Shown here one piece after another: positions 10,023 through 34,742 of a DNA stretch of 37,997 bases. Where the stretch lies: positions 1 to 37,997 of the forward strand of contig CAIUOG010000134.1 of the NCBI GenBank assembly GCA_903900705.1. Direction: 5' to 3'. The notes under the pieces are model-generated. The model saw nothing but the letters and a program-made list of their open reading frames with translations. It made no database searches and was not told where the DNA came from. Numbering within the stretch: the stretch's first letter is position 1; each line of letters opens with the position of its first letter. This DNA comes from an uncultured Acidobacteriia bacterium (GTDB lineage: Bacteria; Acidobacteriota; Terriglobia; Bryobacterales; Bryobacteraceae). Position numbers and translations under genes: made by a program.

Positions 10023-11432
10023 TTAGATGTCGTAGTACAGGGAGAACTCGTAGGGATGCGGCCGCAGACGAATAGCCTCCGCTTCATTTCTCCGTTTATA
10101 GTCGATAAAAGTCTCAATCAGTTCTTCTGTAAATACGTCGCCTTTCAAAAGAAATTGATGATCCTCTTCCAGGCACTCCAGCGCCTCGTCGAGCGAGATC
10201 GGCATCGACGGCACCGACTTCATTTCTTCCGGCGAAAGGTCGTAAATGTCCTTGTCGAGCGGCTCGCCCGGTTCGATCCGGTTCAGCACGCCATCGAGAC
10301 CAGCCATCAGCATGGCGGAGAACGCGAGGTACGGATTGGCCGAAGGGTCCGGTGGACGGAACTCCACCCGCTTCGCCTTCGGACTCGCCGAATACATGGG
10401 GATCCGGACGGCCGCCGAACGGTTGCGCCGCGAGTACGCCAGGTTCACCGGCGCTTCGTAGCCCGGCACCAGGCGCTTGTAGCTGTTCGTGGTGGGAGCA
10501 ATAATCGCCGAAAGCGCCCGCGCGTGCTTCAGGAGGCCGCCAATGTAGTAGAGCGCCATCTGACTCAACCCCGCGTAGCCGTCACCCGCAAACAGAGGCT
10601 TATTGTCGCGCCAGATCGACTGGTGCACATGCATGCCGCTGCCATTGTCCCCAAAGATCGGCTTCGGCATGAAGGTCACCGTCTTGCCATACTGATTCGC
10701 CACGTTCCGCACGACGTACTTGTACGTCATCATGTTGTCCGCGGTCTTCACCAGCGTGTTAAACCGCTGGTCGATCTCGCACTGCCCCGCCGTCGCCACT
10801 TCATGATGGTGGCACTCGATCACCAGGCCGCAACGCTCCATCACATTCACCATTTCCGAGCGCAGATCCTGATAGTGATCCGTCGGCGGCACCGGGAAGT
10901 AGCCTTCCTTATAGCGCGGGCGATAGCCCTTGTTGTCCTTCTCGCGGCTTGAATTCCAGCGCCCTTCATCGGCGTCGATGAAGTAGAAACCCGAGTGTGC
11001 GTTCTGGTCGAAACGGATGTTGTCGAAAATGAAAAACTCGGCTTCGGCCCCGATGAACGCCGTATCGCCCACCCCCGTATTCTGCAGGTAGAGTTCGGCC
11101 TTGCGGGCAATCCAGCGCGGATCGCGCTCATAGTTCTGGCGCGTCAGAGGGTCCCGCACGTCGCCAATCATCACCAGCGTCGGCGTCTCCATGAACGGAT
11201 CCATGAACGCTGTGGAAGGGTCGGGAATCAGGAGCATGTCGCTCTCGTTGATCGCCGCCCAGCCGCGGATGCTCGATCCATCAATGCCAAATCCATCGGT
11301 GAACGAAGCTTCCGACAGTTCCCCGATCGGGTAGGAGATATGGTGCTGCAAGCCGGGAATATCGGCAAACCGCACGTCAACCTGGCGCGCGCCGTTTTCT
11401 TTTGCAAACTGCAGGACTTCACTGGGTGTCAT
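10023..11432 (-). CDS. glnA: type I glutamine synthetase
   Basis: Cytoplasmic dodecameric enzyme making glutamine from glutamate, ammonia and ATP. From the ATG at 11432 the protein is 469 residues, the same length as E. coli GlnA. Signatures include DGSSIRGW (51-58), EAEFF with metal-binding E129 and E131 (E130 to F134), [10 protein letters not shown] (263-272), and a C-terminal block with Tyr397 in [10 protein letters not shown], exactly the adenylylation site of class I-beta enzymes, so control by GlnE is likely. The open frame continues 44 codons further upstream, but that segment overlaps the divergent CBM9-like gene and lacks GS character, so the start at MTPSEVLQF is preferred. It is monocistronic with its own terminator. 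No sigma-54 promoter was seen upstream. Confidence 0.97.
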
Positions 11433-11478
11433 AAGAACTCTGTATAACCGTAAGAAACCACAGTTTATCGTGTTCTGT

Positions 11479-12255
11479 ATGGTCGCAGCACACCGGTTGA
11501 CACTGTGGTTGATATTGCTCGCCCCGGCCGTGGCATCGGCGCAGGATGCGGGCAGCCCGCCCAAAAGCTATCTGTGCCACCGCGCCGCGAGTCCGCTTCG
11601 CATCGACGGACTGCCCGACGAGGCCGCCTGGAAGGCCGCCCCCTGGACGGATGACTTCGTCGATATCGAAGGCGCTGCCAAACCCCGGCCCCGCTTCCGC
11701 ACCCGCGCAAAGCTCTTGTGGGATGACGAGTACCTCTACATAGCCGCCGACCTCGAAGAGCCCGACGTCTGGGCCACCCTCACCCAACACGACTCCGTCA
11801 TCTTCCGCGACAACGACTTCGAGGTCTTTCTGAACCCTTCGGGAGACAGCCGCAACTACTTCGAGTTCGAGATGAACGCGCTCAACACCGGCTGGGATCT
11901 CTTCCTGCCCAAGCCATACCGCGAACAGGGCAAGGCCGATAACGGCTGGGAGATCCCGGGCCTGAAGACGGCCGTCCACGTGGAGGGAACGCTCAACAAA
12001 TCCGGCGACAAAGACCGTGGCTGGACCCTCGAAATCGCCTTCCCCTGGACCGCCTTCACCGAACGCAGCGGCTTCGGCAGGCCCAAACCGGGCGATGTGT
12101 GGCGCATCAACTTCTCCCGCGTGGAATGGCGCACCGAAACGGCCGCCGTCGGCTACCGCAAGCTGCCCGGCAAGGAAGACAATTGGGTCTGGTCCCCGCA
12201 GGGCGTGGTCGACATGCACCGCCCGGAACGCTGGGGCTTCCTGCGCTTCGACTGA
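11479..12255 (+). CDS. exported CBM9-like carbohydrate-binding protein
   Basis: A 258-residue protein with a signal peptide ([15 protein letters not shown], cut near residue 21) followed by one domain of the CBM9-like/PF06452 type. Typical phrases are [47 protein letters not shown] and [10 protein letters not shown]. Family members bind sugar ends or act as stand-alone periplasmic or surface modules. A GTG three codons upstream (11470) could also start it, but the ATG at 11479 leaves a normal signal peptide. The divergent glnA starts only 46 bases away, with TATAAC at 11443-11448 as a possible -10. Its stop TGA directly abuts the stop of the convergent mutarotase-like gene (12255/12256). Position next to sugar genes supports a role in carbohydrate handling (inference). 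Confidence 0.8.
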
Positions 12256-13266
12256 TTAAAGCAGAGCTTCGAAAGCTTCGAGCGACTCCGGAATCGCGGT
12301 CGCCGTCGAGACCGCCGCGTAGTAATCCGCCGTCAGCTTCCGCTTCGCGCCAATCCACTGATAACCCGGAATACCAAACAGGCTCCCGCGCTCAATCATT
12401 TTTCGCCGCGGCTCCGGAAACGGCGACACACCGAACTCCATGCCGCGCGTCTGCGTCCGCCCCAGCCACGGCGTGTGAGTGCGCCCGCGGTTCTCTTCCC
12501 AGATGCCCAGCCACGGAAACTCTTCGCGTTTCCACACGTAGCCCACCACCACCTTCGACGCAGGCGACCAGCCCACGAAGTGCGCGACCTCCCGCGCCGG
12601 GTCCATCAGATTCGCCCAATACCCGCCCGACGGCTGCTCGCTGTAGTACAACTCCAGGTTGCGATCCCCCCACTGCGGCCAGTCGAAATCCGTGCTTTCG
12701 CCGATCGCCCGGGACTTCGTCGCCGGCATACGGAACTGGGTGGCGCCGTTCTCCAGAAACGGAGGTCCGAACGTCACATGCTGCGTCCAGGCGATGGGCC
12801 GGTCCAGCGCAGAGAGATTCTCCACCGTCTCCCGGATATGCGCGCGCCGACCCGCCAGCGTGATGGTCCGCTCAAATGCAAGCTGCGAATCGCGCAGCAG
12901 GCAACTCGCGCGCATCCCGCCGGGAATCACCTCGAACGCATACGGCACAATCCCGCCCTCCGCATGCGCCACCACGCCCGCTTTCACTTCATCCTCCGAC
13001 GGTGGCCCGAACAGGTCCAGACAAAGGTTCTGACCCATGATCCCGGCCAGCAGCCGGCTCTCCGAATCATCTCCAAAAATCGGATACTTCTCCGCCGACC
13101 ACTCGCTCGGCTCCACCGACGGCCATGGCGGAACCCACAGCGGATTCACCCCGGTCGACTTCTCCAGAATCTCCGCAATATGCCCGCCCTCGGCGAGGAC
13201 GGTCACGCGAATCTGGTCGTTTTCAATCTGGAACGCCCGGCGGTTATGAAAGAGGGTCGAAGTCAT
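12256..13266 (-). CDS. aldose 1-epimerase/mutarotase-like protein
   Basis: A 336-residue protein of the galactose mutarotase-like beta-sandwich superfamily. It opens with FHNRRAFQIENDQIRVTVLAEGGHIAEI, the usual first strands of these proteins, and later carries RETVENLSALDRPIAWTQHVTFGPPFLE, including the conserved H in QHV. It has no signal peptide. Such proteins interconvert sugar anomers or bind sugar rings. The ATG at 13266, with AGCAGG about 7 bases upstream, is preferred to the in-frame start 22 codons earlier, because a good promoter (TTGTCA-N17-TGTAAT) ends between them. It diverges from the isomerase/oxidoreductase operon and shares its control region. Catalytic activity is not proven; a non-catalytic sugar-binding role is possible. 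Confidence 0.65.
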   Translation of the reverse strand: MTSTLFHNRRAFQIENDQIRVTVLAEGGHIAEILEKSTGVNPLWVPPWPSVEPSEWSAEKYPIFGDDSESRLLAGIMGQNLCLDLFGPPSEDEVKAGVVAHAEGGIVPYAFEVIPGGMRASCLLRDSQLAFERTITLAGRRAHIRETVENLSALDRPIAWTQHVTFGPPFLENGATQFRMPATKSRAIGESTDFDWPQWGDRNLELYYSEQPSGGYWANLMDPAREVAHFVGWSPASKVVVGYVWKREEFPWLGIWEENRGRTHTPWLGRTQTRGMEFGVSPFPEPRRKMIERGSLFGIPGYQWIGAKRKLTADYYAAVSTATAIPESLEAFEALL

Positions 13267-13278
13267 CGGCAACCTGCT

Positions 13279-13307
13279 ATTACACACCGTTGCCGGGAGT
13301 TTGACAA
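13279..13307 (-). promoter_or_regulatory. leftward promoter of the mutarotase-like gene
   Basis: On the minus strand TTGTCA (13302-13307 on the plus strand) is followed after exactly 17 bases by TGTAAT (13279-13284). Both boxes are one base from the sigma-70 consensus. The -35 box overlaps the -35 box of the rightward promoter. Confidence 0.6.
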
Positions 13308-13329
13308 CGGCCTGACGTTGATATACGCT
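13301..13329 (+). promoter_or_regulatory. rightward promoter of the sugar operon
   Basis: A perfect TTGACA (13301-13306) is followed by TACGCT after 17 bases (13324-13329), or by TATACG after 15 (13322-13327). Start of transcription would be near 13336, about 26 bases before the isomerase ATG. Confidence 0.5.
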
Positions 13330-13338
13330 CACGGGAGC

Positions 13339-13352
13339 TTGAGACGTTTCAA
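13339..13352. promoter_or_regulatory. LacI-type operator candidate
   Basis: TTGAGACGTTTCAA is a near-perfect 14-bp palindrome (one mismatched pair) centred on CG, the classic shape of LacI/GalR-family operators. It lies just after the rightward -10 and 9 bases before the isomerase ATG, where a bound repressor would block transcription. The operon encodes its own LacI regulator (16490-17530), the natural candidate to bind here (inference). Confidence 0.6.
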
Positions 13353-13361
13353 CATCCTCCT

Positions 13362-14405
13362 ATGAGCACTCATAAATCTCCCGCTTTGCACAACGCGATG
13401 TGGCCCGGTCTGGTGGGCAAAGGTGGCGACGCGGAGCCCCCCATCGATCTCGACACGATGCTGAACATGACCGCCGCCGCCGAAGTGGACGGCGTGAAGT
13501 TCGATGGCGCGGATCTCTTCCTTTCCCTGCCCCACACCGACATCGACTCCACCGATGACGACCTCAAGGTTCTTGCCGACAAGCTCTCCAGCCGCAATCT
13601 CGTCGCCGGTTCCCTCGTCGCGCCCGTCTGGGGACCCACCGGCGGCGGTTCCGCCATGGGCAGCGATGATGACATTGCAAAGTTTCTCACCCAGGTCCGC
13701 AAGGCCTGCCAGATCGGCCAGAAGCTCCGGGATCTCGGCATCCGCAGGTACGGCGTGATTCGCATCGATTCCGCCACGGGCGTTGAAGACTGGGCAAAGG
13801 ATCCCGCGGGCAACACCGCAAAGATCGCCGCCACCTTCCGCGAAGCCGGAAAGATTGCCGAAGGGTTTGGCGAACGGCTCGCCGCCGAAGGCGAAATCTG
13901 CTGGGGCGGCATGCAGAGCTGGCGTCGCAACGTCGAACTGCTCGAACAGGTCGGCATGCCCAAAACCGTTGGCTTCCAGGCGGACATGGCCCACACCATG
14001 CTCTTCACTATGGGCTTCAACGCTCCTGAGGACCGTCTCCTGCCCGAAGACTTTGACTGGTCCCAGGGTGACCAACTCGCTGCAGCCTACCGGAAAATGG
14101 CCGGCGCGCTCCGCCCCTGGACCTTCGATTTCCACGTCGCCCAGAACGACGGCACCGTGAAGGGCACCGGATCACACGACAAAACCGGCCGCCACTGCCA
14201 GGCGACCGACCCCAACGGCAAGCTCGACGTCGTTCGCGACGCCGGCGCCTGGATGCGCGATGACAACGGCGTCGTAACCCGCGCCTTCGCCCACATCTGC
14301 TGGGATGGCTGCATGTTCCCCAATGACGTCATGATGAACCAGCAAACCTGGAACGACATCCTCGCGACAATGATCAAAGTGCGCGACGCGCACGGCTGGG
14401 AATAA
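13362..14405 (+). CDS. sugar phosphate isomerase/epimerase-like TIM-barrel protein
   Basis: A 347-residue protein of the xylose isomerase-like TIM-barrel superfamily, cytoplasmic. Barrel strands and candidate metal ligands appear in order: KFDGADLFL (48-56), [34 protein letters not shown] and HICWDG. It lacks the ENHGG form seen in many relatives. Such enzymes isomerise or epimerise sugars and keto-sugars, commonly beside Gfo/Idh/MocA oxidoreductases. No Shine-Dalgarno is visible before the ATG; CATCCTCCT precedes it instead. It is first in a four-gene plus-strand operon (isomerase, oxidoreductase, PF06439 protein, LacI regulator) with a 9-base gap to the next gene. Substrate unknown. Confidence 0.75.
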
Positions 14406-14414
14406 CCAACGCAT

Positions 14415-15557
14415 ATGAAGAAGAAACTGAACATCGGAATGATCGGCTACGGCTTCATGGGCCGTACCCACTCCAACGCCTTTCGCAGCGCTCCGAACTT
14501 TTTCGACCTGCCGTATGAGCCTGTCCTCAGGACCGTTTGCGCTCGCAACGCCGAAAAAGCGCAGGGCTTTGCCGCCCAGTGGGGCTATGAATCCGTCGAG
14601 ACCGACTGGCGCGCCGTGGTCGAAAACAAAGACATCGACATCATCGACATCGCCAGCCCGAACGACACGCACCACGAAATCGCCATCGCCGCCGCCAAAG
14701 CCGGCAAAATGGTCATGTGCGAAAAGCCGCTTGGCCGCAACCCCACTGAATCGGAAGAGATGACCGCCGCCGTGGAAGCCGCGGGCGTACCGAACATGGT
14801 TTGGTACAACTACCGCCGCACCCCCGCCGTCACCCTCGCCAAACAGCTGATCGATGAAGGCCGCCTGGGCCGCATTTTCCACTACCGCACCGTCTTCCTG
14901 CAGGACTGGACCATTTCCGCCGACCTCCCCCAGGGCGGCGCCGGTCTCTGGCGTCTGGATGCCAGCGTCTCTGGCAGCGGGGTCACCGGCGACCTGCTCG
15001 CCCACAACATCGATACCGCCATGTGGCTCAATGGCCAGATCGATGAGGTGACCGCGCTCACCGAGACCTTCATCAAGACCCGCAAACACAGTCTGACCGG
15101 TGAGGATCAGCCCGTCACCATTGACGACGCCAGCCTCTTCCTCGCCCGCTTCGCCAACGGCTCTCTGGCCACCTTCGAAGCCACCCGTTACGCGCGCGGT
15201 CACAAGGCGCTCTACACCTTCGAAATCAATGGCGAGAAGGGCTCACTCAAGTGGGATCTGCATGACCTGCACCGCCTCGAATACTTCGAATACAGCCCCG
15301 AAGGCAAGATGCGCGGCTGGAAGAGCATCCACATCACAGACGGCGACCACCCCTACATGAACCACTGGTGGGTACCCGGCCTGCAGATTGGCTACGAACA
15401 CACCTTTATCCATCAGGCTGCCGACTTCATCACCGCCGTCGGCGAAGGCAAAAGCGCCGCGCCCACTTTCCGGGACGCGCTCAAGACAGACTACGTCACC
15501 GACGCCGTCCTGAAGTCCGCCAAAACCCGCCAATGGGAAAAGCCCAAAACCGCTTAA
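14415..15557 (+). CDS. Gfo/Idh/MocA family NAD(P)-dependent sugar oxidoreductase
   Basis: A 380-residue cytoplasmic dehydrogenase. The N-terminal Rossmann domain has GYGFMGRTH (11-19) for dinucleotide binding and the family hallmark EKP (103-105) with the catalytic Lys. The C-terminal substrate domain carries [13 protein letters not shown] (192-204), with D193, H197 and D200 in the positions of the usual catalytic D-x3-H-x2-D pattern. Family members oxidise or reduce sugar hydroxyls; those beside PF06439 proteins have been linked to 3-keto-glycoside formation. It sits between the isomerase and the PF06439 gene in one operon. No clear Shine-Dalgarno in the 9-base gap before it. Exact sugar and carbon position cannot be read from sequence. 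Confidence 0.9.
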
Positions 15558-15585
15558 GTTTTCGAATTCTGACGAGGATATAACG

Positions 15586-16371
15586 ATGCGACGCTTCTTT
15601 TTGATTCTTTCGACGGTCGCTCTGGCGACCTCGCTGTTCGCGCAGCAGGCTCCTCCGCCCGCCGCCGGACGCGGCCCGGGCGCACCCGCCGGTGGACGCG
15701 GACGCGGTGGACCGCCTGTCCCCGTACTCGAAGAAACCGGCTTCACGCCCATCTTCGACGGCAAATCCCTCAAAGGCTGGGACTGTGACCCCGACTTCTT
15801 CAAGGTTGTGGGCGACACCATCGTAGGAGAAACCACCGCCACCCACCAGCCGCCCCAGAACATTTTCTGCATCTGGAAGGGCGATCAGCCCGCCGACTTC
15901 GAACTGAAACTGCAGTACAAACTCACCGGCGCCAACACCGGCAATTCCGGCATCCAGTACCGCAGCGTGGAACTGCCGGACGTGGCGAAGTGGGTGCTCA
16001 AAGGTTACCAGTTCGATATCGACGCCAACCAGACCTACACCGGCCAGCTCTACGAAGAACGCAACCGCGGCTTCCTCGCCCTGCGCGGCCAGATTGTCTA
16101 TATCCCGAACGGCAAAAAGGTCGGCTCCATCGGCACCACCGGTGACAGCGACCAGCTCAAGAGCTTCATCAAGCTGGAAGACTGGAACGACGTCGACATC
16201 ATCGCCCGCGGCAACGTGCTCACCCACCTGCTGAACGGCCACGTGATGAGCGTGATTATCGACGATGACCTGGCCAACCGCCGTCTTTCCGGCGCCATCG
16301 GCATCCAACTCCACAAGACTCCCAACAACATGAAGATCGAAACCCGGAATATTCGTTTGAAAACCTTCTAG
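15586..16371 (+). CDS. exported PF06439 (DUF1080) 3-keto-disaccharide hydrolase-like protein
   Basis: A 261-residue protein with a signal peptide ([19 protein letters not shown]) and a Gly/Pro/Arg-rich linker (about 22-45), then a concanavalin-like beta-jelly roll. Typical family phrases are [37 protein letters not shown] and [13 protein letters not shown]06439 is now named 3-keto-disaccharide hydrolase because characterised members cleave glycosides after oxidation to 3-keto sugars. A Shine-Dalgarno GAGGA is placed about 8 bases before the ATG, 28 bases after the oxidoreductase stop. The enzyme would act outside the cytoplasm while the oxidoreductase beside it has no export signal, so the step order needs transport between compartments. 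Not all family members are proven hydrolases. Confidence 0.85.
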
Positions 16372-16489
16372 CGTTCAACTATTGATTGACAATTCAATAA
16401 CAGTTCAATCAAGCTGGAAATTCAACAGGACCGCTTTTCACGGCGCCAGCGCCGCGGGAAGCGGTCCTGCTCCATTCCGGGAGCTATAC
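16372..16489 (+). promoter_or_regulatory. AT-rich island with repeated TTCAA before the LacI gene
   Basis: This short AT-rich stretch interrupts GC-rich DNA. TTCAA occurs at 16374, 16393, 16404 and 16421, with TTGA at 16382 and 16386, and ATTGA (16381-16385) pairs with TCAAT (16394-16398). A TTGACA lies at 16386-16391 but without a clear -10. It could be a secondary promoter or an operator cluster for the regulator. Confidence 0.35.
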
Positions 16490-17530
16490 TTGCCAACCAT
16501 CAAAGAAGTCGCGGAGCGCGCCGGGGTTTCGGTCGGAACTGTTTCCCACGTCATCACCGGCTCGGTACCGGTCAGTGATGACCTTCGCGTGAAAGTTCAA
16601 ACCGCCATTCGCGATCTGGACTATCACCCCAACCACGTCGCCCGCAGCCTCAAAACCAGCCGCACCCGCACGCTCGGCATCATCGTCCCGGATATGACGA
16701 TCTCCTTCTTCCCCCAAATCATCCGGGGAGCGGAAACCGCCGCGCGCCAGAAGGGCTATGCTCTGATCGCCGTGAACTCGACCGAATCCGGCGAGCGGCA
16801 GACCGAAGTGCTCTCCCTGCTGCGTTCCCAGCAGGTGGAGGGCATCCTCCTGGTCATTGCCGCCGGTTCCGCGCCCACCAATCAGATGGCGCGCCTCATC
16901 GAAGCCGGCATCCCGGTGGTCTGTCTTGATCGTGTACCGGACCGCATACCCGTGGACTCCGTTTCGGTGGAAGACGTCACCGCCGCCGAAATGGGGACCG
17001 AACATCTGCTGCAGATGGGCTACCGCCGCATCGCCATCATCACCGGCCCGCTGGCGCTCAAGAACGAACGCCGCCGCCTGCAGGGCTACGAACAGAGCCT
17101 GGAGCGCGCCGGCATTGCTCCGGATGACGATCTGGTCTGGCAGGGCAACCTGCGCACTGAAGATCTGGAAGCCATGTGCCGCGAACGCCTCAGCAACCCC
17201 GCCCGTCGCCCGGACGCCATCTTCTGCACCAACGGCCCCACCGCGCTCGCCGCCCTCCGCGCCATGCGCAGTTGCCGTATGACCACCCCGGATGACCTTG
17301 GCTTCGTCACCTTCGACGAACTCACCGTGGACGACCTCTTCCGCCCCGCCATCACCACCATCCTGCAACCGGCCTACGACATCGGCTACAAGGCATCCGA
17401 GATCCTGCTCGAACGGATCGAAACAGGGAAAGACCGCACCGACGTCCGCACCGTGCGCCTGCCGGCCACGCTGAAAGTCCGCGACTCTTCCCGCCGCGTC
17501 TCCATCGTCAAACTGTCCGAGACTTATTAA
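16490..17530 (+). CDS. LacI/GalR-family transcriptional regulator
   Basis: A 346-residue repressor-type protein. From the TTG at 16490 it begins directly with the DNA-binding helix-turn-helix TIKEVAERAGVSVGTVSHVI (residues 3-22) and the hinge YHPNHVARSLKTSRT, then a periplasmic-binding-protein-like sensor domain (TLGIIVPDM to the C-terminus). GGGAG ends 6 bases before the TTG, which makes this start far better than an in-frame ATG 36 codons upstream. It is last in the sugar operon and likely senses a pathway sugar or keto-sugar; the palindrome at 13339-13352 is a probable binding site. The 3' end overlaps the convergent TIGR03435 gene by 4 bp. Ligand unknown. Confidence 0.9.
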   Translation: MPTIKEVAERAGVSVGTVSHVITGSVPVSDDLRVKVQTAIRDLDYHPNHVARSLKTSRTRTLGIIVPDMTISFFPQIIRGAETAARQKGYALIAVNSTESGERQTEVLSLLRSQQVEGILLVIAAGSAPTNQMARLIEAGIPVVCLDRVPDRIPVDSVSVEDVTAAEMGTEHLLQMGYRRIAIITGPLALKNERRRLQGYEQSLERAGIAPDDDLVWQGNLRTEDLEAMCRERLSNPARRPDAIFCTNGPTALAALRAMRSCRMTTPDDLGFVTFDELTVDDLFRPAITTILQPAYDIGYKASEILLERIETGKDRTDVRTVRLPATLKVRDSSRRVSIVKLSETY

Positions 17531-18228
17531 TTCGCGTCCGGCGTCTTCGCGATCTGATCGATCACCACCGTCTTCACCGGAGCCTTCGCGCCCTCAAGGT
17601 GCAGTCCCAGCGTCTCCTGCACTGCCGTAAAGATGGAGGGTAATTCAGGATTCCCTTCATCGCCCCATTCGAGCGTCACCGCGTAAGACTCTTTCAGCCC
17701 CGTGCGATCGAGAACCGGCCGCTTCAGAATCAGCGCCAGAATCTCCGCCATCTGCTCCATCGAGATGCGGGTCGCCTTCAGACTCCGGTCGCTGCGATTC
17801 ACCGAACTGTCGTCACCCGGCACGGCCGTCAGCTTCGGCCCGGACTTCGCCACTGTGAGCGCATAAACGGACATCTCTTTTTCGCCAATATGCGCCGCCA
17901 GCCCGAACCGCTCCGTGAGCAGGCCCTTCAACATCTCCGGTATCGCTTTTTTGGGATAATCTTTCGGCAGCTTCGCCCGGATGTCGATCCGCTGGTCCGT
18001 CAGCCATGGCGGCCCGGAAATCTGTTGCTCCGGCACCTGATAGGCCACCCGCAGGACGTCCATCAGCGACGTGTTGGTGTAGGTCAGAAATCCATCGTCC
18101 ACGCTCATGGACGTGCTGATGTGCCCCATTTCCTGCGGGGACGACATCCGCACCGCCGCGACTTCAAACGCAGGCGTCTGCGCCAATAAAAACGGCGCGC
18201 TCAACATCAGAAGAGAAATTGATCTCAC
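17527..18228 (-). CDS. TIGR03435-family secreted protein
   Basis: A 233-residue protein with a signal peptide (MRSISLLMLSAPFLLA, then QTPAFEVAAVR). The mature start FEVAAVRMSSP, the middle block LMDVLRVAYQVPEQQISGPPWL followed by RIDIRAKLP, LKGLLTERFGLAAH and the late PVLDRTGLKESY are the recognisable pattern of TIGR03435, a family found in many copies in Solibacter-like Acidobacteriota. Function is unknown. It lies 45 bases after the isomerase gene on the same strand and may be the last gene of that run. Its stop overlaps the lacI stop from the other strand. Useful mainly as a taxonomic marker. Confidence 0.88.
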   Translation of the reverse strand: MRSISLLMLSAPFLLAQTPAFEVAAVRMSSPQEMGHISTSMSVDDGFLTYTNTSLMDVLRVAYQVPEQQISGPPWLTDQRIDIRAKLPKDYPKKAIPEMLKGLLTERFGLAAHIGEKEMSVYALTVAKSGPKLTAVPGDDSSVNRSDRSLKATRISMEQMAEILALILKRPVLDRTGLKESYAVTLEWGDEGNPELPSIFTAVQETLGLHLEGAKAPVKTVVIDQIAKTPDAN

Positions 18229-18273
18229 CTGCGTTAATACGCGCCGCGTACCGTTTCGTTCGTTCGGATCAGT

Positions 18274-19341
18274 CTACCCCAGACCCAGCACGCGCCGGTT
18301 CCGTGCCGTATCAGACCCCGCGCCCGCGAAGTCGTCAAACGCCTTCGTCGGCACGTCAATCAGGTGCTTCGCAATGAACGGAGCCCCTTCGGTCGCGCCC
18401 TGCACGCTGTCCTTGTAGCAGCACTCCCATTCGAGTACCGCCCAGGAACTGTAGCCCGCCGCCGTCAGCCGCGTGAATACCTGTCCGAAATCCACCTGGC
18501 CATCGCCCAGCGAACGGAAGCGGCCCGGCCGGTCTTTCCAGCCGAGGAACGCCCCATAGACACCCGCTCTGGCCGACGGACGGAATTCCGCGTCCTTCAC
18601 ATGGAACGCCTTGATGCGCGGACCGTAGATATCAATGAATCCGACGTAATCCATGCACTGCAGCACAAAGTGCGACGGGTCATAGTTGATCGCCACACGC
18701 GGATGATTGCCCGTCGCTTCAAGGAACTGTTCGAAGCTCGCGCCATCATGCGTATCCTCACCGGGATGCAGCTCATAGGCGAGATCGATGTTGTTCTCGT
18801 CGGCATAGTTCAGAATCGGCATCCAGCGCTTCGCCAGTTCTTTGAAGCCTTCTTCCACAATGCCCGCCGGGCGCTGCGGCCACGGGTACATAAACGGCCA
18901 AAGCAGGGCCCCTGTGAAGGAGGGCGACACCGTCAGCCCCATATTCGCCGACGCCTTGATCACATACATCATCTGCTGCGTGGCCCACTCGGCGCGCGCC
19001 TTCGGATTCCCCTGTACTTCCGGCGCGGCAAAGCCATCGAACAGCTCATCGTACGCCGGGTGCGACGCCACCAGTTGTCCCTGCAGATGCGACGCCAGTT
19101 CCGTGATCACCAGGCCATTCGTCTGGCCCTTCAGATCGTCGCAATAGGCCTTCGATTCCGCCGCCTTTTTGATGTCGATCACGCGGCCATCCCACGACGG
19201 CACCTGCACGCCGGCATAGCCCAGGCTCTTCACCCAAGCCGTGATATTCGGCAGCGTGTTATATGGCGCGCTGTCCCCCATGAACTGGGCGAGAAAAATT
19301 GCGGGTCCTTTGATTTGAGACATTTTCGTTGGCTCTTTCAT
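18274..19341 (-). CDS. sugar phosphate isomerase/epimerase (xylose isomerase-like TIM barrel)
   Basis: A 355-residue cytoplasmic TIM-barrel protein with an intact four-ligand metal site: E190 in AYELHPGE, D221 in INYDPSH, H247 in AFHVKD and E304 in VLEWEC. This matches AP-endonuclease-2/xylose isomerase-like enzymes that epimerise or isomerise sugars and keto-sugars. The start may be residue 1 (19341) or Met7 (19323); neither has a strong Shine-Dalgarno. It follows the second Gfo/Idh/MocA gene by 6 bases, so the two form a unit. Unlike the isomerase at 13362 it retains the textbook ligand set, so the two proteins are not simple duplicates. Substrate unknown. Confidence 0.85.
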   Translation of the reverse strand: MKEPTKMSQIKGPAIFLAQFMGDSAPYNTLPNITAWVKSLGYAGVQVPSWDGRVIDIKKAAESKAYCDDLKGQTNGLVITELASHLQGQLVASHPAYDELFDGFAAPEVQGNPKARAEWATQQMMYVIKASANMGLTVSPSFTGALLWPFMYPWPQRPAGIVEEGFKELAKRWMPILNYADENNIDLAYELHPGEDTHDGASFEQFLEATGNHPRVAINYDPSHFVLQCMDYVGFIDIYGPRIKAFHVKDAEFRPSARAGVYGAFLGWKDRPGRFRSLGDGQVDFGQVFTRLTAAGYSSWAVLEWECCYKDSVQGATEGAPFIAKHLIDVPTKAFDDFAGAGSDTARNRRVLGLG

Positions 19342-19347
19342 TCGGCG

Positions 19348-20511
19348 TTAAGAACGTTCCGGCATCAGCACCCAAACGGCGCCTTTTTCAGCGGATTCCA
19401 CGGCCTTGTAGATAAACTGCATCCCGCGCAGACCGTCATAAACGGTCGGGAACTTATACTCGGCGCGCGTCATCGGATTGCCCGCAATGTGCCGCCGGAT
19501 GGCCTCCACCGCGTCGACATAGATGGTGGCGAACGCTTCCAGATAGCCTTCCGGATGACCGGTCGGAATCCGCGTCACCGCTGTCGCTTCGGCCGAGAGA
19601 TACCCGGCATTGCCGCGCGAATACGTCTGGCGCGGCTGCCCGTGCTTGTAAACGTGCAGATAATTCGGATTCTCCTGCGCCCACGAAATCGCGCCTTCCG
19701 AACCATAAACGCGCAGCGTCAGCCCGTTCTCTTCACCACACGCGATCTGGCTCACCGTCAATACACCTTTGCCGCCGCCCTCAAAACGCATCAGCGCATT
19801 CACATCTTCATCCAGCTTGCGATCAGGGAGGAAAATGCTCGTATCCGCGCAGATGGAAACCAGCGGATCGCCCGTGACATACTCCACCAGGTTCAGCGCA
19901 TGCGTTCCGATATCGCCCAGCGCGCCGCCAATGCCCGACTCCGCCGGATTCGTGCGCCACGAAGCCTGCTTCGACCCATGTTTCTCCTGGGGCGTCATCA
20001 GCCAGTCCTGCAGATACTCGACAAGCACCTTCCGCACCACGCCCAGTTCGCCCGAAGCAAACATCTTCCGTGCCTGCCGGACCATCGGATGCCCCGTGTA
20101 ATTGTGCGTCAGAGCGAAAACCAGGCCTGACTTCTCCACAATCTTCACCAGCTCTTCGGCCTGCTCCAGCGTGAGCGCCAGTGGTTTATCGCAAACCACA
20201 TGGATCCCCGCTTCGAGGAACGCCTTCGAAGGTCCGAAGTGCGCGTTATTCGGCGTCACAATGCTGACGAAGTCGATGCGCTGGTCCGCGGGCAATGCCG
20301 CCTCGGCCGCCGCCATCTCCTCGTAGCTCTTATAGGACCGCGGCACATGCAGGCGCGCGGCGGTCGCCGCCGAATTCGCCTCATCGCGGGAGAAGACTCC
20401 GGCGGTCAATTCAATCTGCTGGTCAAGTGCGGCGGCGATGCGATGGACGGCTCCGATGAAGGACCCCTGCCCGCCACCGACCATCCCCATACGCAGTTTG
20501 CGGTCTGGCAT
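19348..20511 (-). CDS. Gfo/Idh/MocA family oxidoreductase (second copy)
   Basis: A 387-residue NAD(P)-dependent dehydrogenase. The Rossmann loop is VGGGQGSFIGAVHR (11-24), the family motif appears as CDKPLAL (107-113) with Asp in place of the common Glu, and the substrate domain carries GGALGDIGTHALNLVEY with D200 and H204. It differs much in sequence from the copy at 14415, so it likely handles another sugar or the reverse step. It is 43 bases downstream of the DUF2393-like gene and 6 bases upstream of the isomerase, on the same strand as tldD and pmbA. Context supports a keto-sugar route; exact reaction unknown. Confidence 0.9.
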   Translation of the reverse strand: MPDRKLRMGMVGGGQGSFIGAVHRIAAALDQQIELTAGVFSRDEANSAATAARLHVPRSYKSYEEMAAAEAALPADQRIDFVSIVTPNNAHFGPSKAFLEAGIHVVCDKPLALTLEQAEELVKIVEKSGLVFALTHNYTGHPMVRQARKMFASGELGVVRKVLVEYLQDWLMTPQEKHGSKQASWRTNPAESGIGGALGDIGTHALNLVEYVTGDPLVSICADTSIFLPDRKLDEDVNALMRFEGGGKGVLTVSQIACGEENGLTLRVYGSEGAISWAQENPNYLHVYKHGQPRQTYSRGNAGYLSAEATAVTRIPTGHPEGYLEAFATIYVDAVEAIRRHIAGNPMTRAEYKFPTVYDGLRGMQFIYKAVESAEKGAVWVLMPERS

Positions 20512-20554: not shown

Positions 20555-21010
20555 CTACTCAAACTGCAACTGAGCAATAATTAACGTCGGCATCGCCTGA
20601 TTCCAGTTCTCCGGAATCGTGTCAAAAGGCAGCCGGAAACTCTTCGTCTCCCCGGGCGCGAGCGACCCCGTCCGTCCGCCCACCACAAACGCCCGCTCCC
20701 GCGCAATCTCCACGCCCGAATAATCGCTGAACACGCAGGTCACCTCAGCCACCTTCACGGTCCGGCTCCCCTTGTTCGAAATCTCGCCCAGAATCTCCAC
20801 CAGCCGCGAATTCACATAACTCTCGGCCGCCTGCATGTGCACGTTCGAAAGTGCCAGGCTCGAAAGGTATGCTTTCCCTTCCTGCGTCAGCCGGGGTGGT
20901 GGCGGCGCGGCGGGCGCGGGCCCGAACGTCAGCCACCCGAACACACCCAGAATCAACACGCCGGCAAGGCCAACCACGATACTGGCGGGAGAGATTTTAA
21001 CGTCCGGCAA
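20555..21010 (-). CDS. membrane-anchored DUF2393/FxLYD-like protein
   Basis: A 151-residue protein with one N-terminal membrane helix (about 10-29), a Pro/Ala-rich stretch (31-40) and a C-terminal beta-sandwich-like region. The phrases EILGEISNKGSRTVKVAEV and FRLPFDTIPENWN resemble DUF2393/FxLYD domains, which are extracytoplasmic and of unknown function. Its start overlaps the pmbA 3' end by 14 bases, so it is translationally linked to the TldD/TldE pair. I know no established role with those proteases, making this a good candidate for a linked accessory protein. Confidence 0.6.
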   Translation of the reverse strand: MPDVKISPASIVVGLAGVLILGVFGWLTFGPAPAAPPPPRLTQEGKAYLSSLALSNVHMQAAESYVNSRLVEILGEISNKGSRTVKVAEVTCVFSDYSGVEIARERAFVVGGRTGSLAPGETKSFRLPFDTIPENWNQAMPTLIIAQLQFE

Positions 21011-22349
21011 CGGTCATTTCTCCGATCATGATGGTCGGCGCGGACACAGAACCGCGGAACTCCAGATCGTTCCCGATCTCCGCCACGCCATTCAGCATTT
21101 CCTGCAACGTACTCGCAATCGTCACTTCCGAAACCGGGAAGGCCAGTTCCCCGTCGCGAACCCAGATGCCCACCGCGCCACGCGAATAATCGCCCGTCAC
21201 CGTATTGACGCCGCTCCCGATCAGTTCGGTCACATAAAAACCGTTCTTCACGCCGCGCAGAATCTCTTCCGCGCTCTTCTGCCCCGCTTCGAGGAAGAAG
21301 TTTCCATACCCGATGCCGGCATTCCCCGTAATCCCGCGCGACGCGTTGCCGGTTGTCTTCATCCCCAGCTTCCGCGCCGTATAAGTGTTCAGCAGGTAAT
21401 TCTTCAGAACGCCCCGCTCAATCACCATCGTCCGGCGCGTCGGCACGCCCTCATCGTCAAACGGCTGCGAACCAAACAAACCCGGGAGGGTGCCGTCGTC
21501 GATCAGCGTAATCCGCTCATCCGCGATCTTTTCGCCCAGCTTCCCCGCGAGGAATGACGCCTGCCGGTAAATCGCCCGGCCTTCCACCGCCTCAAACAGA
21601 TTCCCCAGCAGCGTGCGCGCCACACGCGGCTCGAATATCACCGGGACTTTCTGCGTCTCCACCTTCACCGCGCCCAGCCGCCGCACCGTCCGCTCCGCCG
21701 CCATCCGGCCCACCAGCGCCGCGTCTTCCAGACCCGCGTAATCCCGCGCAATGGTGAACCAGTAATCGCGTTCCATGCTCTCGCCCTGCGTCGCCACCGG
21801 CACGGCCGAGATGGAACAGTATGTCGACCGGTACGCGCCCGCGAAACCGCGCGAATTCGCAAACACGCGCCCGCCGATATTTGAATCGAACGAGCCGCCT
21901 TCCGAGTTCGTAATGCGCGGATCAAACGCCAGCGCCGCCGCTTCCGCGCGCTTCGCCGCATCGATCTTCAGCTCCGTCGGCAACCCCGCCACATCCTCTG
22001 AAAACAGCCGCAGGTCCGTCCGCAGCGACCCCAACTCCTCCGGCTCCGGCAGCGCCGCATTCGGATCTTCCGTCGTCACCGCCGCCAGATCAATTGCCGA
22101 CCGCACCATCTGCCGGATCCCGTCCGGCGTCAGGTCAGACGTGTAAGACGAGCCCATCCGCCGCCCGATCAACACGCGCAATCCCGCCCCGCGCGACCCG
22201 GCTTCCTTCAGCGTTTCCAACTCGCCCATGCGAACGTTCGCCGAAAACTCCGCCCCGTCCTGCATCGTGCATTCCGCGTCCGTCGCGCCCGCGTCCCGCG
22301 CCTGCCGGATCACCGACTGCGCGATTTCCTGCAACTCACTCAGCTGCAT
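20997..22349 (-). CDS. pmbA: TldE/PmbA subunit of the TldD/TldE protease
   Basis: A 450-residue protein of the PmbA/TldD family, partner of TldD. In E. coli the TldD/TldE heterodimer removes leader peptide from microcin B17 precursor and degrades unfolded peptides such as CcdA; TldE lacks the zinc site. This copy also has no HExxxH, as expected for TldE. Conserved phrases include GLRVLIGRRMGSSYTSDL, NSRGFAGAYRST and TGNAGIGYGNFFLEAG. The preferred ATG at 22349 overlaps the tldD stop as TAATG. An upstream in-frame extension of 29 codons lies inside tldD and is rejected. The DUF2393-like gene follows with overlap. No precursor peptide gene is evident nearby. Confidence 0.93.
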   Translation of the reverse strand: MQLSELQEIAQSVIRQARDAGATDAECTMQDGAEFSANVRMGELETLKEAGSRGAGLRVLIGRRMGSSYTSDLTPDGIRQMVRSAIDLAAVTTEDPNAALPEPEELGSLRTDLRLFSEDVAGLPTELKIDAAKRAEAAALAFDPRITNSEGGSFDSNIGGRVFANSRGFAGAYRSTYCSISAVPVATQGESMERDYWFTIARDYAGLEDAALVGRMAAERTVRRLGAVKVETQKVPVIFEPRVARTLLGNLFEAVEGRAIYRQASFLAGKLGEKIADERITLIDDGTLPGLFGSQPFDDEGVPTRRTMVIERGVLKNYLLNTYTARKLGMKTTGNASRGITGNAGIGYGNFFLEAGQKSAEEILRGVKNGFYVTELIGSGVNTVTGDYSRGAVGIWVRDGELAFPVSEVTIASTLQEMLNGVAEIGNDLEFRGSVSAPTIMIGEMTVAGR

Positions 22350-23779
22350 TAAGCCGTTCCCCCGACTGTCATCCGGTCGATCCGGACCGTGGGAATCCCC
22401 ACGCCCACCGGAACGCTCTGGCCTTCCTTGCCGCACACGCCGATGCCTTCGTCGAGTTTCAAATCGTTCCCCACCATGCTGACGTGCTTCATCGCCTCCG
22501 GACCGTTACCGATCAGCGTGGCGTTCTTCACCGGCCTCGTCAGCTTGCCGTCCTCAATCAGATAGCTTTCCGATGCCGAGAACACAAAGTTCCCGCTCGT
22601 GATATCCACCTGCCCGCCCGCGAAATTCGCGCAGTAGAGCCCGCGCGGCACGGATTTGATGATGTCCGCCGGATCGCTTTCCCCGGCCAGCATGAACGTG
22701 TTCGTCATGCGCGGCATCGGAATATGCTCATAGCTCTCGCGCCGTCCGCTGCCCGTGGGCGCCGTGCCCAGAATCCGGCTCGACAGCTTATCCTGCAGAT
22801 AGCCGCGCAGAATGCCGTTCTCGATCAGCACGTTGCGCTGCGTCTGGTTGCCTTCATCGTCCACATTCAGTGACCCGCGACGCCCACCGATCGTGCCGTC
22901 GTCAATAATCGTGCACAGCGGACTCGCCACCTGCTGCCCGATGCGCCCGCTGAAAGCCGAAACGCCCTTGCGATTGAAGTCCGCTTCCAGCCCGTGGCCC
23001 ACCGCTTCATGCAGCAGCACGCCAGGCCAGCCGGGCCCCAGCACCACAATCTGCTCGCCGGCCGGAACCTCCGCCGCGCCCAACTGCATAATTGCCTGCC
23101 GCGCGGCTTCCTTCGCGAAGTATTCGGGAGTCCGCTCCGTCTGAAACCAGTCGAGTTCATACCGACCGCCGCCGCCCGCGTGTCCCTGCTGCGGCACGCC
23201 GTCCGTATCTTTGGCCAGCGCGAGCACGCTCATCCGAGCCAGGGGCTGCCGGTCGAAATTCAGCACGCCATCGCTGGTCGCCACCATCACCTGCCGCAGG
23301 TTGTCCGCATAGGTCACCTGCACCTGGAAAACGCGGGAATCATAAGCGCGCGCCGCGCGGTCCGCACGCTGCGCCAGTTCAACCCGTTCCTTAAAGGCGG
23401 TCTCACTGGGTGCGGTCAGAACAGGGTACAGGTTCCGCTTCCGGCCTTCCTGCAGCGAGGCCGTCTCCACCTTCGCCGGGCCGGACGCGATCAGCGCCGC
23501 CACCTGCGCCGCATGCCGGATCTTCTCCGGGCTCAGATCGTCGGAATACGCATAGCCAGTCCGTTCGCCGGAGATCACGCGAACGCCCACCCCGAGCGAC
23601 ACGCCCTGCGTCGCGCTCTTCACAATCGACTCGTCTATGCTGATCGAGCTTGTCGCAAGGTATTCAAAATAAAGGTCCGCATAGTCGCCACCCCGTGACA
23701 GCGCTTCGGAAAGGTAGTTTTCCAGATCCCGCCGCGAGATGCCGAACCTGACGGCGAAAAAGGAATCGGAAAAGCTCAT
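22349..23779 (-). CDS. tldD: TldD metalloprotease subunit
   Basis: A 476-residue protease with the zinc motif HEAVGHGLEADF (257-268; H257, H262 and E258) and the late conserved Cys449 in GVCGKEGQ. Length and order match TldD. It forms a heterodimer with TldE and threads peptides through a narrow channel to the zinc site. It is first in a minus-strand run tldD-pmbA-DUF2393-oxidoreductase-isomerase-TIGR03435 with small gaps. No strong Shine-Dalgarno precedes the ATG. The divergent short-chain dehydrogenase begins 104 bases away. The peptide substrate is unknown. Confidence 0.96.
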   Translation of the reverse strand: MSFSDSFFAVRFGISRRDLENYLSEALSRGGDYADLYFEYLATSSISIDESIVKSATQGVSLGVGVRVISGERTGYAYSDDLSPEKIRHAAQVAALIASGPAKVETASLQEGRKRNLYPVLTAPSETAFKERVELAQRADRAARAYDSRVFQVQVTYADNLRQVMVATSDGVLNFDRQPLARMSVLALAKDTDGVPQQGHAGGGGRYELDWFQTERTPEYFAKEAARQAIMQLGAAEVPAGEQIVVLGPGWPGVLLHEAVGHGLEADFNRKGVSAFSGRIGQQVASPLCTIIDDGTIGGRRGSLNVDDEGNQTQRNVLIENGILRGYLQDKLSSRILGTAPTGSGRRESYEHIPMPRMTNTFMLAGESDPADIIKSVPRGLYCANFAGGQVDITSGNFVFSASESYLIEDGKLTRPVKNATLIGNGPEAMKHVSMVGNDLKLDEGIGVCGKEGQSVPVGVGIPTVRIDRMTVGGTA

Positions 23780-23882
23780 ATCGGTATTTAGACTCTGCCT
23801 TCCACTCTATCAACAGGAAGTTACAGGGCTTCGCCCACCCCTGCCGGGTATCGATATAAGCTTTAGGTGAGAGAATATCGCT

Positions 23883-24653
23883 TTGAACCCCTTTTCACTC
23901 GAAGGTAAAACTGCGCTGATCACCGGCGCCAGCCGCGGAATCGGTCTGGCTATCGCGCGAGGCATGCATGCCGCCGGAGCCACTGTCGTGCTGGCCGCAC
24001 GCTCGAAAGACAAGCTCGAAGCGCTTGCGAAAGAGCTGAACGGCCGCTATGTCGAGGTCGACATGATGGATACCGCCTCCATCGCGCGCGCCGCCGAAGC
24101 CGCCGGAGACGTGGATATCCTGGTCAACGTCGCCGGCACCAACATCCGTAAGCGTTTTGAAGACGTGACGCCGGAGCAGTACCACACTATCGTCCAGACC
24201 AACCTCCACAGCCTGGCTGAAATGACGCAGCTCGTCGGCAAGCGCATGATCGCGCGCGGCAAGGGCGGCAAAATTATCAACATCGGCAGCCTCACCACCT
24301 TCAGCGGCATCCCCTACATCGCCGTCTACGCCATGACAAAAGGCGCCGTCGGCCAGCTCACCAAGGCACTTGCCGCTGAATGGGCGCAGTTTGATATTCA
24401 GGTAAACTGCATCGCCCCCGGATTCATTCTCACAGACCTCAACCGCGCCATGTGGCAGCCCGAATCCATGAACGAATGGCGCAAAGCCATCCAGGCAAAT
24501 GACCGCATGGGCACTCCGGAAGACATCGCCCCCGCTGCAGTCTTCCTCGCCTCCCCCGGTTCCGACTACGTGACCGGCCAGGTCATTGCGGTCGATGGCG
24601 GCGCTTCCACCACCATGAAATGGCCCATGGCCGCGCCCCCGTCCACAACCTAA
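23883..24653 (+). CDS. short-chain dehydrogenase/reductase (KduD/gluconate dehydrogenase-like)
   Basis: A 256-residue NAD(P)-dependent classical SDR. Cofactor motif TGASRGIG (14-21), NVAGTN (82-87), and catalytic S136, Y149 and K153 (YAMTK) are all present. The C-terminal region resembles 2-deoxy-D-gluconate 3-dehydrogenase/gluconate 5-dehydrogenase enzymes. The start is TTG at 23883, preceded by AGGTGAG about 12 bases upstream. A -10-like TATAAG lies at 23855-23860 and an 8-bp palindrome TATCGATA at 23849-23856, in the divergent region shared with tldD. A sugar-acid role would fit the neighbouring carbohydrate genes but is inference. Confidence 0.88.
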   Translation: MNPFSLEGKTALITGASRGIGLAIARGMHAAGATVVLAARSKDKLEALAKELNGRYVEVDMMDTASIARAAEAAGDVDILVNVAGTNIRKRFEDVTPEQYHTIVQTNLHSLAEMTQLVGKRMIARGKGGKIINIGSLTTFSGIPYIAVYAMTKGAVGQLTKALAAEWAQFDIQVNCIAPGFILTDLNRAMWQPESMNEWRKAIQANDRMGTPEDIAPAAVFLASPGSDYVTGQVIAVDGGASTTMKWPMAAPPSTT

Positions 24654-24661
24654 GAATCACC

Positions 24662-26484: not shown

Positions 26485-26496
26485 CAGGTCACTCGT

Positions 26497-26506
26497 ATGC
26501 TAGCAT
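26497..26506. promoter_or_regulatory. 10-bp perfect palindrome between peptidase and mla genes
   Basis: ATGCTAGCAT is perfectly self-complementary and lies in the 55-base divergent region. It could be an operator for either side. No strong -35/-10 pair is visible around it. Confidence 0.3.
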
Positions 26507-26539
26507 CGGTTTCGTAGCCCCGGCATCCACCGAATTACA

Positions 26540-28125: not shown

Positions 28126-28153
28126 GCAGCAGAGGGAACATCAACAAACTGAC

Positions 28154-30769: not shown

Positions 30770-30886
30770 AAGTTCTCCCTCATTTCGCAGCAGCTGAATT
30801 TAGATTTTCGAAAGGACCGGTTCGCTCGAATGAGCCGCGTGCTTGTTTGGTTTCAATAGGATAGACACCACAATCCCAAAGAAGTT

Positions 30887-30901
30887 CCCGGAGATTCCGG
30901 G
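30887..30901 (-). terminator. weak hairpin after moaA
   Basis: CCCGGA (30887-30892) and TCCGGG (30896-30901) form a 6-bp stem with a 3-base loop, 9 bases after the moaA stop. The following minus-strand sequence AACTTCTTTGG is only moderately T-rich, so termination may be partial. Confidence 0.35.
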
Positions 30902-30910
30902 TTCCCGCAA

Positions 30911-31900: not shown

Positions 31901-31909
31901 AATAAAGTT

Positions 31910-32839: not shown

Positions 32840-32868
32840 GGCTATTTGCCGGACAGTTTGGTTCCGGA

Positions 32869-33246: not shown

Positions 33247-33321
33247 ACAGCAACCCTATCTTAACAACTGTCACGGGACGCGTCCGAAACCCGCTCGAAA
33301 CAAACCACTTCCCAAACAAAA

Positions 33322-33356
33322 CGCCGCCGTGCCTCAGGCGGAGAGGCACGGCGGCG
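33322..33356 (-). terminator. strong rho-independent terminator of the TPR gene
   Basis: CGCCGCCGTGCCTC (33322-33335) and GAGGCACGGCGGCG (33343-33356) form a perfect 14-bp stem with a 7-base loop. On the minus strand it is followed by TTTTGTTTGGG. It lies 38 bases after the TPR gene stop. Confidence 0.88.
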
Positions 33357-33393
33357 CCAAGTGAACCACATACCCGGGTATCCCGGGAAACAA

Positions 33394-34653: not shown

Positions 34654-34714
34654 GTTCTGTTGCCTCCCGCCTCTTTGTCAAATACCGGTTCGTTCAACGG
34701 CCTGTCTCTCGCTT

Positions 34715-34742
34715 TTGACAGCCCGTCTTAAGAGAATATCCT
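34715..34742 (+). promoter_or_regulatory. upstream candidate promoter toward the symporter
   Basis: Perfect TTGACA (34715-34720), 16-base spacer, TATCCT (34737-34742). It faces the symporter gene with a leader of about 150 bases and lies just inside the leader of the divergent TPR transcript. Confidence 0.45.

Follow-up and report, generated by a model that had tools for sequence, protein, structure and literature searches.

The window analysed here is a 37,997-nucleotide stretch of DNA from an uncultured bacterium of the Bryobacteraceae (Acidobacteriota; assembly GCA_903900705.1, contig CAIUOG010000134.1). Between positions 11470 and 20511 it contains nine reading frames that family profile searches show to be real genes, among them two Gfo/Idh/MocA oxidoreductases (GFO1 and GFO2), two triosephosphate isomerase (TIM) barrel proteins (TIM1 and HYD), an exported protein of the PF06439 family (KDH) and a LacI-family regulator. 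TIM1, GFO1, KDH and the LacI gene lie on the plus strand, GFO2 and HYD on the minus strand, and a DUF3738 gene is located in between. A first-pass annotation of the same DNA, made from the sequence alone, described this region as a single candidate island for 3-keto-sugar catabolism; its list did not include the DUF3738/TIGR03435 gene or the operator-like site. The features of the region are as follows.

11479..12255, plus strand: exported CBM9-like protein (PF06452, CBM9_1, 46.5 bits against a cut-off of 23.4; signal-like N-terminus)
12256..13266, minus strand: galactose-mutarotase-fold protein, DUF4432-related (23.3 bits, below the cut-off of 32.5), divergent from TIM1
13301..13329, plus strand: promoter-like elements of the TIM1 operon (TTGACA at 13301-13306, TATACGCT at 13322-13329)
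13339..13352, plus strand: putative LacI-type near-palindromic operator TTGAGACGTTTCAA, 9 bp upstream of the TIM1 start
13362..14405, plus strand: TIM1, xylose-isomerase-like TIM barrel; its family is highly conserved and uncharacterised (PF01261, 31.0 bits; fold model)
14415..15557, plus strand: GFO1, Gfo/Idh/MocA oxidoreductase similar to levoglucosan dehydrogenase (LGDH; NF052479, 350.9 bits; K104, D193 and H197 present)
15586..16371, plus strand: KDH, exported protein of the 3-keto-disaccharide hydrolase family (PF06439, 109.5 bits against a gathering cut-off of 26.8; hydrophobic N-terminus)
16490..17530, plus strand: LacI-family regulator (PF00356 and PF00532; start moved from 16382)
17527..18228, minus strand: DUF3738/TIGR03435 protein between the modules, assigned to neither (PF12543, 161 bits; TIGR03435, 212.4 bits)
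18274..19341, minus strand: HYD, predicted 2-hydroxy-3-keto-glucal hydratase, AtHYD orthologue (8ro4 match; PF01261, 113.7 bits against a cut-off of 31.1)
19348..20511, minus strand: GFO2, Gfo/Idh/MocA oxidoreductase, probable 3-keto-glucose reductase (plasmid neighbours; K109, D200 and H204 present)

The hidden Markov model matches bear out the PF06439 protein, the CBM9-like protein, the LacI regulator and the two oxidoreductases of the first-pass annotation. The oxidoreductases and the TIM barrels are each dissimilar pairs, given that GFO1 and GFO2 share 25% identity over 304 residues and that TIM1 and HYD yield no blastp match at E 10. Of the two 'dissimilar TIM-barrel isomerases' in that annotation, the dissimilarity and the barrels hold, with TIM1 lying just below the PF01261 cut-off of 31.1 bits, but 'isomerase' is wrong for HYD. 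The mutarotase-like assignment is retained in part: the DUF4432 score misses its cut-off, but galactose mutarotases are among the top structure matches of a low-confidence model (mean predicted local distance difference test score, pLDDT, of only 70.2, from 7 sequences). Homologues of this protein adjoin TIM1 in other Acidobacteriota loci and place its start, probably, at ATG 13266; the LacI gene probably starts at TTG 16490, ahead of the helix-turn-helix domain. KDH and the CBM9-like protein have signal-peptide-like N-termini, whereas TIM1, HYD, GFO1 and GFO2 do not, in agreement with the earlier claim that the oxidoreductases lack an export signal; these calls come from an N-terminal hydropathy scan and reading by eye, not from SignalP.

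HYD aligns with residues 1-349, the full length, of the Agrobacterium tumefaciens hydratase AtHYD (PDB 8ro4; E 5.1e-155), with 223 of the 350 aligned positions identical (63.7%), which identifies it as an AtHYD orthologue. Six putative metal-site and E-x-H residues (E190, H192, D221, H224, H247 and E304) do not vary among 16 sequences, and 8ro4 has the same residues at these positions of its alignment with HYD. By homology, HYD would be a 2-hydroxy-3-keto-glucal hydratase, the function assigned to AtHYD elsewhere. Relatives of HYD occur in 366 plasmid records, 326 of which cover at least 80% of its length, and in all four plasmids opened (from Agrobacterium, Azospirillum, Paracoccus and Phyllobacterium), a Gfo gene directly follows HYD. 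GFO2, whose nearest PDB match is 3v5n, is 43.8–55.8% identical to these four alphaproteobacterial neighbours (4 of the 366 records, compared by pairwise identity, not in a tree), and is probably a 3-keto-glucose reductase. On the Paracoccus plasmid pAK3, a homologue of the eliminase AtOGE (8bvk, E 1.4e-38), a Gfo, HYD and another Gfo lie in a row. The HYD match, the HYD-Gfo pairs on plasmids and the published four-step route together make the last two steps, hydration and reduction, of the oxidation-elimination-hydration-reduction route the best reading of GFO2-HYD. A stretch of an A. tumefaciens plasmid (L203:898-9246; L, G and C numbers denote loci, genomes and contigs of this analysis) encodes a Gfo that scores 724.2 bits for LGDH (cut-off 650), a 270-amino acid TIM barrel, an AtHYD-type hydratase, a GFO2-type Gfo and ATP-binding cassette (ABC) transporter genes. 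In some organisms that degrade levoglucosan, an enzyme of the AtHYD type may be the missing counterpart of LgdB2.

The main interest of the locus is in the left pair, TIM1-GFO1. A GTDB genome scan retrieves TIM1 relatives that are 63–89% identical across several phyla, so that the pair should have a defined substrate; the record titles include Acidobacteriota, Bacteroidota, Balneolaceae, Planctomycetota, Verrucomicrobiota, Alphaproteobacteria and Chloroflexota among others, and the plasmid records gave no TIM1 match. The loci compared below are the best 80 of 170 qualifying stretches, many from genome bins whose labels can err, and the first gene calls on them were longest open reading frames (ORFs), antisense calls included. 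In 61 of the 80, from several phyla, GFO1 is the same-strand neighbour of TIM1. It has no match in the other 19; some of the latter are cut by contig ends, but several with 10 kb on both sides (e.g. L107, L114, L117, L119 and L122) are truly without it nearby. Further matches are to KDH (29 loci), the 406-amino acid protein described below (29), DUF4432-type proteins (25, two queries merged), a cytochrome-c protein (14), LacI (3) and HYD (1). Because many of the loci come from relatives of Algoriphagus, these counts are not independent. The KDH matches recur in TIM1 loci of Acidobacteriota, Bacteroidota, Balneolota, Planctomycetota and Verrucomicrobiota.

The AlphaFold model of TIM1 (pLDDT 92.4) is a confident xylose-isomerase-like barrel. 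A phmmer search against the PDB, with AtOGE (8bvk) and AtHYD included, gave no match at E 0.01, and a profile comparison of TIM1 with HYD gave a probability of 2%. The best Foldseek match is 8ro4 (E 4.7e-9), near-tied with xylose isomerases, 3-epimerases and IolE. At the top of the VIA list of fold matches are IolE and SCO6571; the absence of AtOGE (8bvk) from the Foldseek matches listed excludes nothing. With such near-ties, the fold does not decide the function, and the assignment of TIM1 to AtHYD-type hydratases from Foldseek alone was rejected, since the other families follow 8ro4 so closely. All 41 sequences compared (40 of the 80 loci and the window copy) have E176, E178, D208, H211, H258 and D315. 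Judging from the strand ends of the model, E176, D208, H258 and D315 would form a metal site, and Glu178 would sit where AtOGE has its catalytic His134, a tentative correspondence based on where the strands end and on a profile alignment that is very weak. Eliminases without sequence kinship to each other are known.

GFO1 has 4h3v and 6a3f as its nearest PDB matches and is 41.6% identical to the LGDH-scoring protein of L203, a positive example. Both window oxidoreductases fail the LGDH cut-off of 650 bits (GFO2 scores 128.5), and GFO1 was rejected as a true LGDH on its score. Inositol metabolism, which the first-pass annotation had named as a possible refuter, does not apply, because the proteins miss the equivalog cut-offs by far: for IolG (TIGR04380), GFO1 and GFO2 score 128 and 69.3 bits against 355; for IolE (TIGR04379), HYD scores 63.5 bits against 290 and TIM1 has no match. 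The 406-amino acid companion (403–406 amino acids, e.g. L063:496-1716) has no Pfam or PDB match (L063 copy) and no NCBIfam match (L063, L087 and L192 copies). It is present in this genome on an unlinked contig (C110:99940-101118, 66% identity), and in 45 of the 67 genomes of the order with TIM1 compared with 26 of the 83 without it (Fisher p 1.6e-5, uncorrected for kinship). A different substrate context is seen in Acidisoma and a Tepidamorphaceae bin, where TIM1-GFO1 is accompanied by DhaK, an epimerase-like TIM barrel and, by eye, transporter-like genes (L118:12169-18176, with DhaL too, and L081:1510-9929).

The distribution of the two barrels separates the left and right halves of the locus. 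Among 150 genomes of the Bryobacterales, TIM1 is found in 67 and HYD in 61 (17 of 78 genomes were dropped from the HYD count, with matches only 31–35% identical), and HYD is about as frequent in genomes with TIM1 (26 of 67) as in those without it (35 of 83; p 0.74). TIM1 and HYD share a contig only in this genome (G000) and in G045, another bin from this genus, where the arrangement recurs on a 194-kb contig (locus L100). Draft assemblies can hide such linkage; in loci such as L054 and L058, however, 10 kb on both sides of TIM1 include no HYD, even though these genomes carry HYD elsewhere. The view that all 9 kb form a single conserved island was accordingly rejected, and of the gene order expected in other Bryobacterales, the complete form is confined, among these genomes, to the congener. 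The same recurrence in a second bin speaks against an assembly artefact, and an assembly chimera was rejected on the gene order in L100. Because of the independent distribution, and of an operator on the left module alone, the locus is, as judged from these comparisons, two neighbouring modules, not one island.

In this genome, PF06439 matches occur at 20 places (21 listed, two of which are pieces of one frame), PF01261 matches at 51 (50 plus TIM1's own place) and Gfo (PF01408) matches at 33. A Gfo match lies within 3 kb at 8 of the 51 PF01261 places, compared with a mean of 1.6 and a maximum of 7 in 2000 draws of random placement, and this locus is the only one of the 20 PF06439 places with both a Gfo and a PF01261 barrel within 10 kb.

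The TIM1 upstream region is conserved in nearer relatives. In an alignment of the window and nine relatives, TTGACA is present in all ten sequences, TATACGCT in nine, and TTGAGACGTTTCAA in seven, with TTGAGTCGTTTCAA, one change away, in the other three; a consensus promoter scan of the same region returned 0 sites. The operator was first spotted by eye and then tested. The exact TTGARACGTYTCAA occurs once in the 6.1-Mb genome, before TIM1, and a search of the window that tolerates two mismatches finds one site (0.21 expected); there is no copy before GFO2. Among 32 of the 80 TIM1 loci scanned, nine have an upstream site that departs from the ideal palindrome at one or two positions, whereas 288 of 300 shuffled upstream controls (single bases permuted) gave five to seven mismatches and the remaining 12 three or four. 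By position, the LacI protein may act on the putative operator at 13339-13352; this link is one of position because loci with the site mostly are without LacI.

In a PF06439 tree of 46 rows, nine Acidobacteriota module copies, that of the window included, form a supported clade (100/97). The tree left out the own-genome loci L008, L011, L018 and L020 (no match) and L001, L003 and L005 (short), did not repeat the window copy L014, counts L017 and L019 as one ORF, and has several long branches. The association of KDH with the module is real but not exclusive, because other own-genome rows share a larger clade, as detailed below. KDH would most likely cleave 3-keto glycosides. In four Acidobacteriota loci (L051, L053, L057 and L058), two PF06439 genes of different subclades follow GFO1. 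The export of the hydrolase and not of the oxidoreductases had been taken to imply an unusual split between compartments, a claim that does not survive: a periplasmic location beside the membrane dehydrogenase LacABC is proposed for a Caulobacter DUF1080 protein (PMC9007349), BT2158 is described as a periplasmic protein (PMC11300592), and this genome has candidate exported oxidoreductases of its own. These are Gfo paralogues with twin-arginine translocation (TAT)-like starts (L178, L180 and L182) and five Gluconate_2-dh3 places, where a protein resembling glucose-methanol-choline (GMC) oxidoreductases that bind flavin adenine dinucleotide lies alongside in three of the four looked at (read from N-termini). 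The TAT-like Gfo and the GMC-like/Gluconate_2-dh3 genes may encode enzymes that produce 3-keto glycosides outside the cytoplasm. Given the periplasmic precedents and these candidates, oxidation is placed outside the cytoplasm and GFO1 downstream, an order that we infer. A literature search on periplasmic 3-keto-glucose enzymes and on DUF4432 returned nothing useful.

The explanation that probably applies is one of two adjacent modules, a pathway end encoded by GFO2-HYD and a separately controlled TIM1-GFO1-KDH operon. In the first, HYD would hydrate 2-hydroxy-3-keto-glucal to 3-keto-glucose in the cytoplasm, as AtHYD does, and GFO2 would reduce the latter to glucose with NAD(P)H. In the second, an operon predicted to lie behind the LacI-type operator, a dehydrogenase encoded elsewhere in the genome would first oxidise a glycoside at C3, KDH would split the product outside the cytoplasm, and the released keto-sugar would be imported; inside, GFO1 would reduce the keto-sugar or oxidise a related sugar, the metal-dependent TIM1 would isomerise or epimerise it, and the mutarotase-like protein would supply the right anomer. 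The compartment paradox disappears because GFO1 would act after KDH, not before. The keto-sugar chemistry of the first-pass annotation thus stays plausible, through the HYD homology and the co-location of PF06439 with TIM1, while its one island and one pathway do not. More tentatively, and doubtful as it stands, TIM1 might be the founder of a separate cross-phylum class of metal-dependent keto-sugar enzymes that, with GFO1, process keto-sugars released extracytoplasmically by PF06439 proteins. If so, it would mark a widespread, compartment-split branch of the 3-keto-glycoside route whose central step is unassigned.

Several observations weigh against this explanation. On the right, GFO2 lies beside HYD in just 3 of 29 further HYD loci of the order (1.5-kb flanks) and is absent, as is TIM1, from eight HYD regions of 17–18 kb, six of them on contigs longer than 4 Mb (just two, G020 and G057, are from genomes with TIM1); in L069, a GFO2 homologue adjoins TIM1. 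In the PF06439 tree, the larger supported group (98/95) unites all 34 module rows with 5 of the 12 other own-genome rows (4 distinct ORFs), and the module label needs 5 changes. Other activities are reported or proposed for the family: THTE_1561 is described as an endo-xanthanase/lichenase (PMC9007349), and direct cleavage of xanthan is proposed for DUF1080 proteins of Planctomycetes (PMC5673643). Deletion of BT2157 or BT2158 is reported to cause no growth defect on raffinose-family sugars (PMC11501099). Upstream of TIM1, 23 of the 32 regions have a best operator match of five to seven mismatches, the chance level. A LacI homologue is found on 2 of the 14 TIM1 stretches checked (L051 and L100), and 7 of the 12 LacI-less stretches carry an operator-like site; some of these end early at contig ends, but L053, L054 and L058 have long downstream sequence. 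No sugar importer was seen beside the left module, and the basis for a keto-sugar as the presumed substrate of TIM1 and GFO1 is indirect.

The alternative that survives best, unlikely as it appears, is a single cytoplasmic four-step pathway, in which GFO1 would oxidise an imported glycoside at C3, TIM1 would eliminate the aglycone, HYD would hydrate and GFO2 would reduce, with KDH as a periplasmic shortcut for the same substrates. Every role can be filled within 9 kb, the consecutive genes on pAK3 are a precedent, GFO1 is LGDH-like and the arrangement is retained in G045. Several observations are difficult to reconcile with this scheme: only one of the 80 TIM1 loci has an HYD match beside TIM1, the two barrels neither co-occur nor share a contig beyond the two congeners, GFO2 lacks the operator, and TIM1 has a Glu, not a His, at the AtOGE catalytic position, if the strand-end correspondence is right.

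A still less probable alternative is that TIM1-GFO1 serves another sugar or polyol pathway (tetritol-, ketose- or branched-sugar-like), with the adjacency of PF06439 reflecting shared uptake of plant or algal sugars. Such a role would suit the Acidisoma and Tepidamorphaceae loci, where TIM1-GFO1 lies with DhaK and a barrel resembling epimerases (its scores miss the cut-offs for D-psicose 3-epimerase and IolO) and there is no PF06439 match, and the 51 of 80 loci that have no KDH match in the available stretch, but not the recurrence of KDH matches in five phyla; nor does any scanned window protein or companion reach an NCBIfam polyol equivalog cut-off, except DhaK/DhaL in L118. That the genes are neighbours by chance and without functional meaning, in a genome with many members of all three families and with the two halves unlinked elsewhere, is very improbable, since the left gene pair is kept across phyla and the promoter across nearer relatives, and Gfo-TIM pairing exceeds random placement; for the left operon, the cross-phylum conservation of the pair largely refutes this reading.

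The remaining features lie outside the two modules. The CBM9-like ORF opens at GTG 11470 (the first-pass annotation used ATG 11479), and the protein probably is not part of the module, because a CBM9 match adjoins TIM1 in just one of the 80 loci, L100. A glutamine synthetase gene forms the left border (10026-11441, minus strand). On the right are tandem PmbA/TldD-type metallopeptidase genes (20997-23779, minus strand), the first of which also follows GFO2 in L100; at 23800-37997, the scanned ORFs with matches look ordinary (e.g. MlaD, NadA, radical-SAM/Mob_synth_C, sodium:solute symporter) and some have no match.

The non-hydrolytic 3-keto route of glycoside breakdown is a recent addition to carbohydrate catabolism, and its enzymes are hard to recognise because sequence-unrelated TIM barrels perform the steps. 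The Agrobacterium tumefaciens pathway (GlycDH-AtOGE-AtHYD-Gfo) is encoded in an operon with two TIM-barrel proteins and two oxidoreductases, as here, and the AtOGE structure is available as 8bvk (PMC10628242). The right pair shares with it the hydratase and its Gfo partner. Unlike that pathway, the window has no AtOGE-like match, the best matches of the Paracoccus AtOGE homologue in this genome are 29% identical and on other contigs, and the searches detect no sequence relationship of TIM1 to AtOGE or AtHYD. Levoglucosan is described as being degraded by the same four steps with LgdA, LgdB1, LgdB2 and LgdC (PMC7676230; PMC10066097), again two Gfo proteins and two TIM barrels; LGDH is the nearest NCBIfam equivalog to GFO1, and L203 links an LGDH Gfo with an HYD-Gfo pair. 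GFO1, however, is below the LGDH cut-off, TIM1 is longer than LgdB1 (347 compared with ~275 amino acids), and no ABC transporter is seen beside the window genes. The systems of 3-keto-glycoside cleavage by PF06439/DUF1080 proteins (BT2157 and Caulobacter CCNA_01705; PMC9007349) likewise place an exported PF06439 protein near oxidoreductases, but here the adjacent Gfo proteins are cytoplasmic by their N-termini and the KDH chemistry is predicted. Halomonas xylose operons are described as having an unassigned isomerase-Gfo pair (PMC5507952). A TIM1-GFO1-PF06439 module was not found in the open-access literature searched. The right pair appears to be a further case of the known oxidation-elimination-hydration-reduction system, and provides a clear example of a paired hydratase and reductase from a lineage of Acidobacteriota that is known mainly through genome bins. 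What is new here is the TIM1-GFO1 pair, an uncharacterised variant with strong cross-phylum conservation, for which a regulator and a putative operator are at hand and which is carried by named isolates (e.g. Algoriphagus and Dyadobacter) in which its substrate could be sought.

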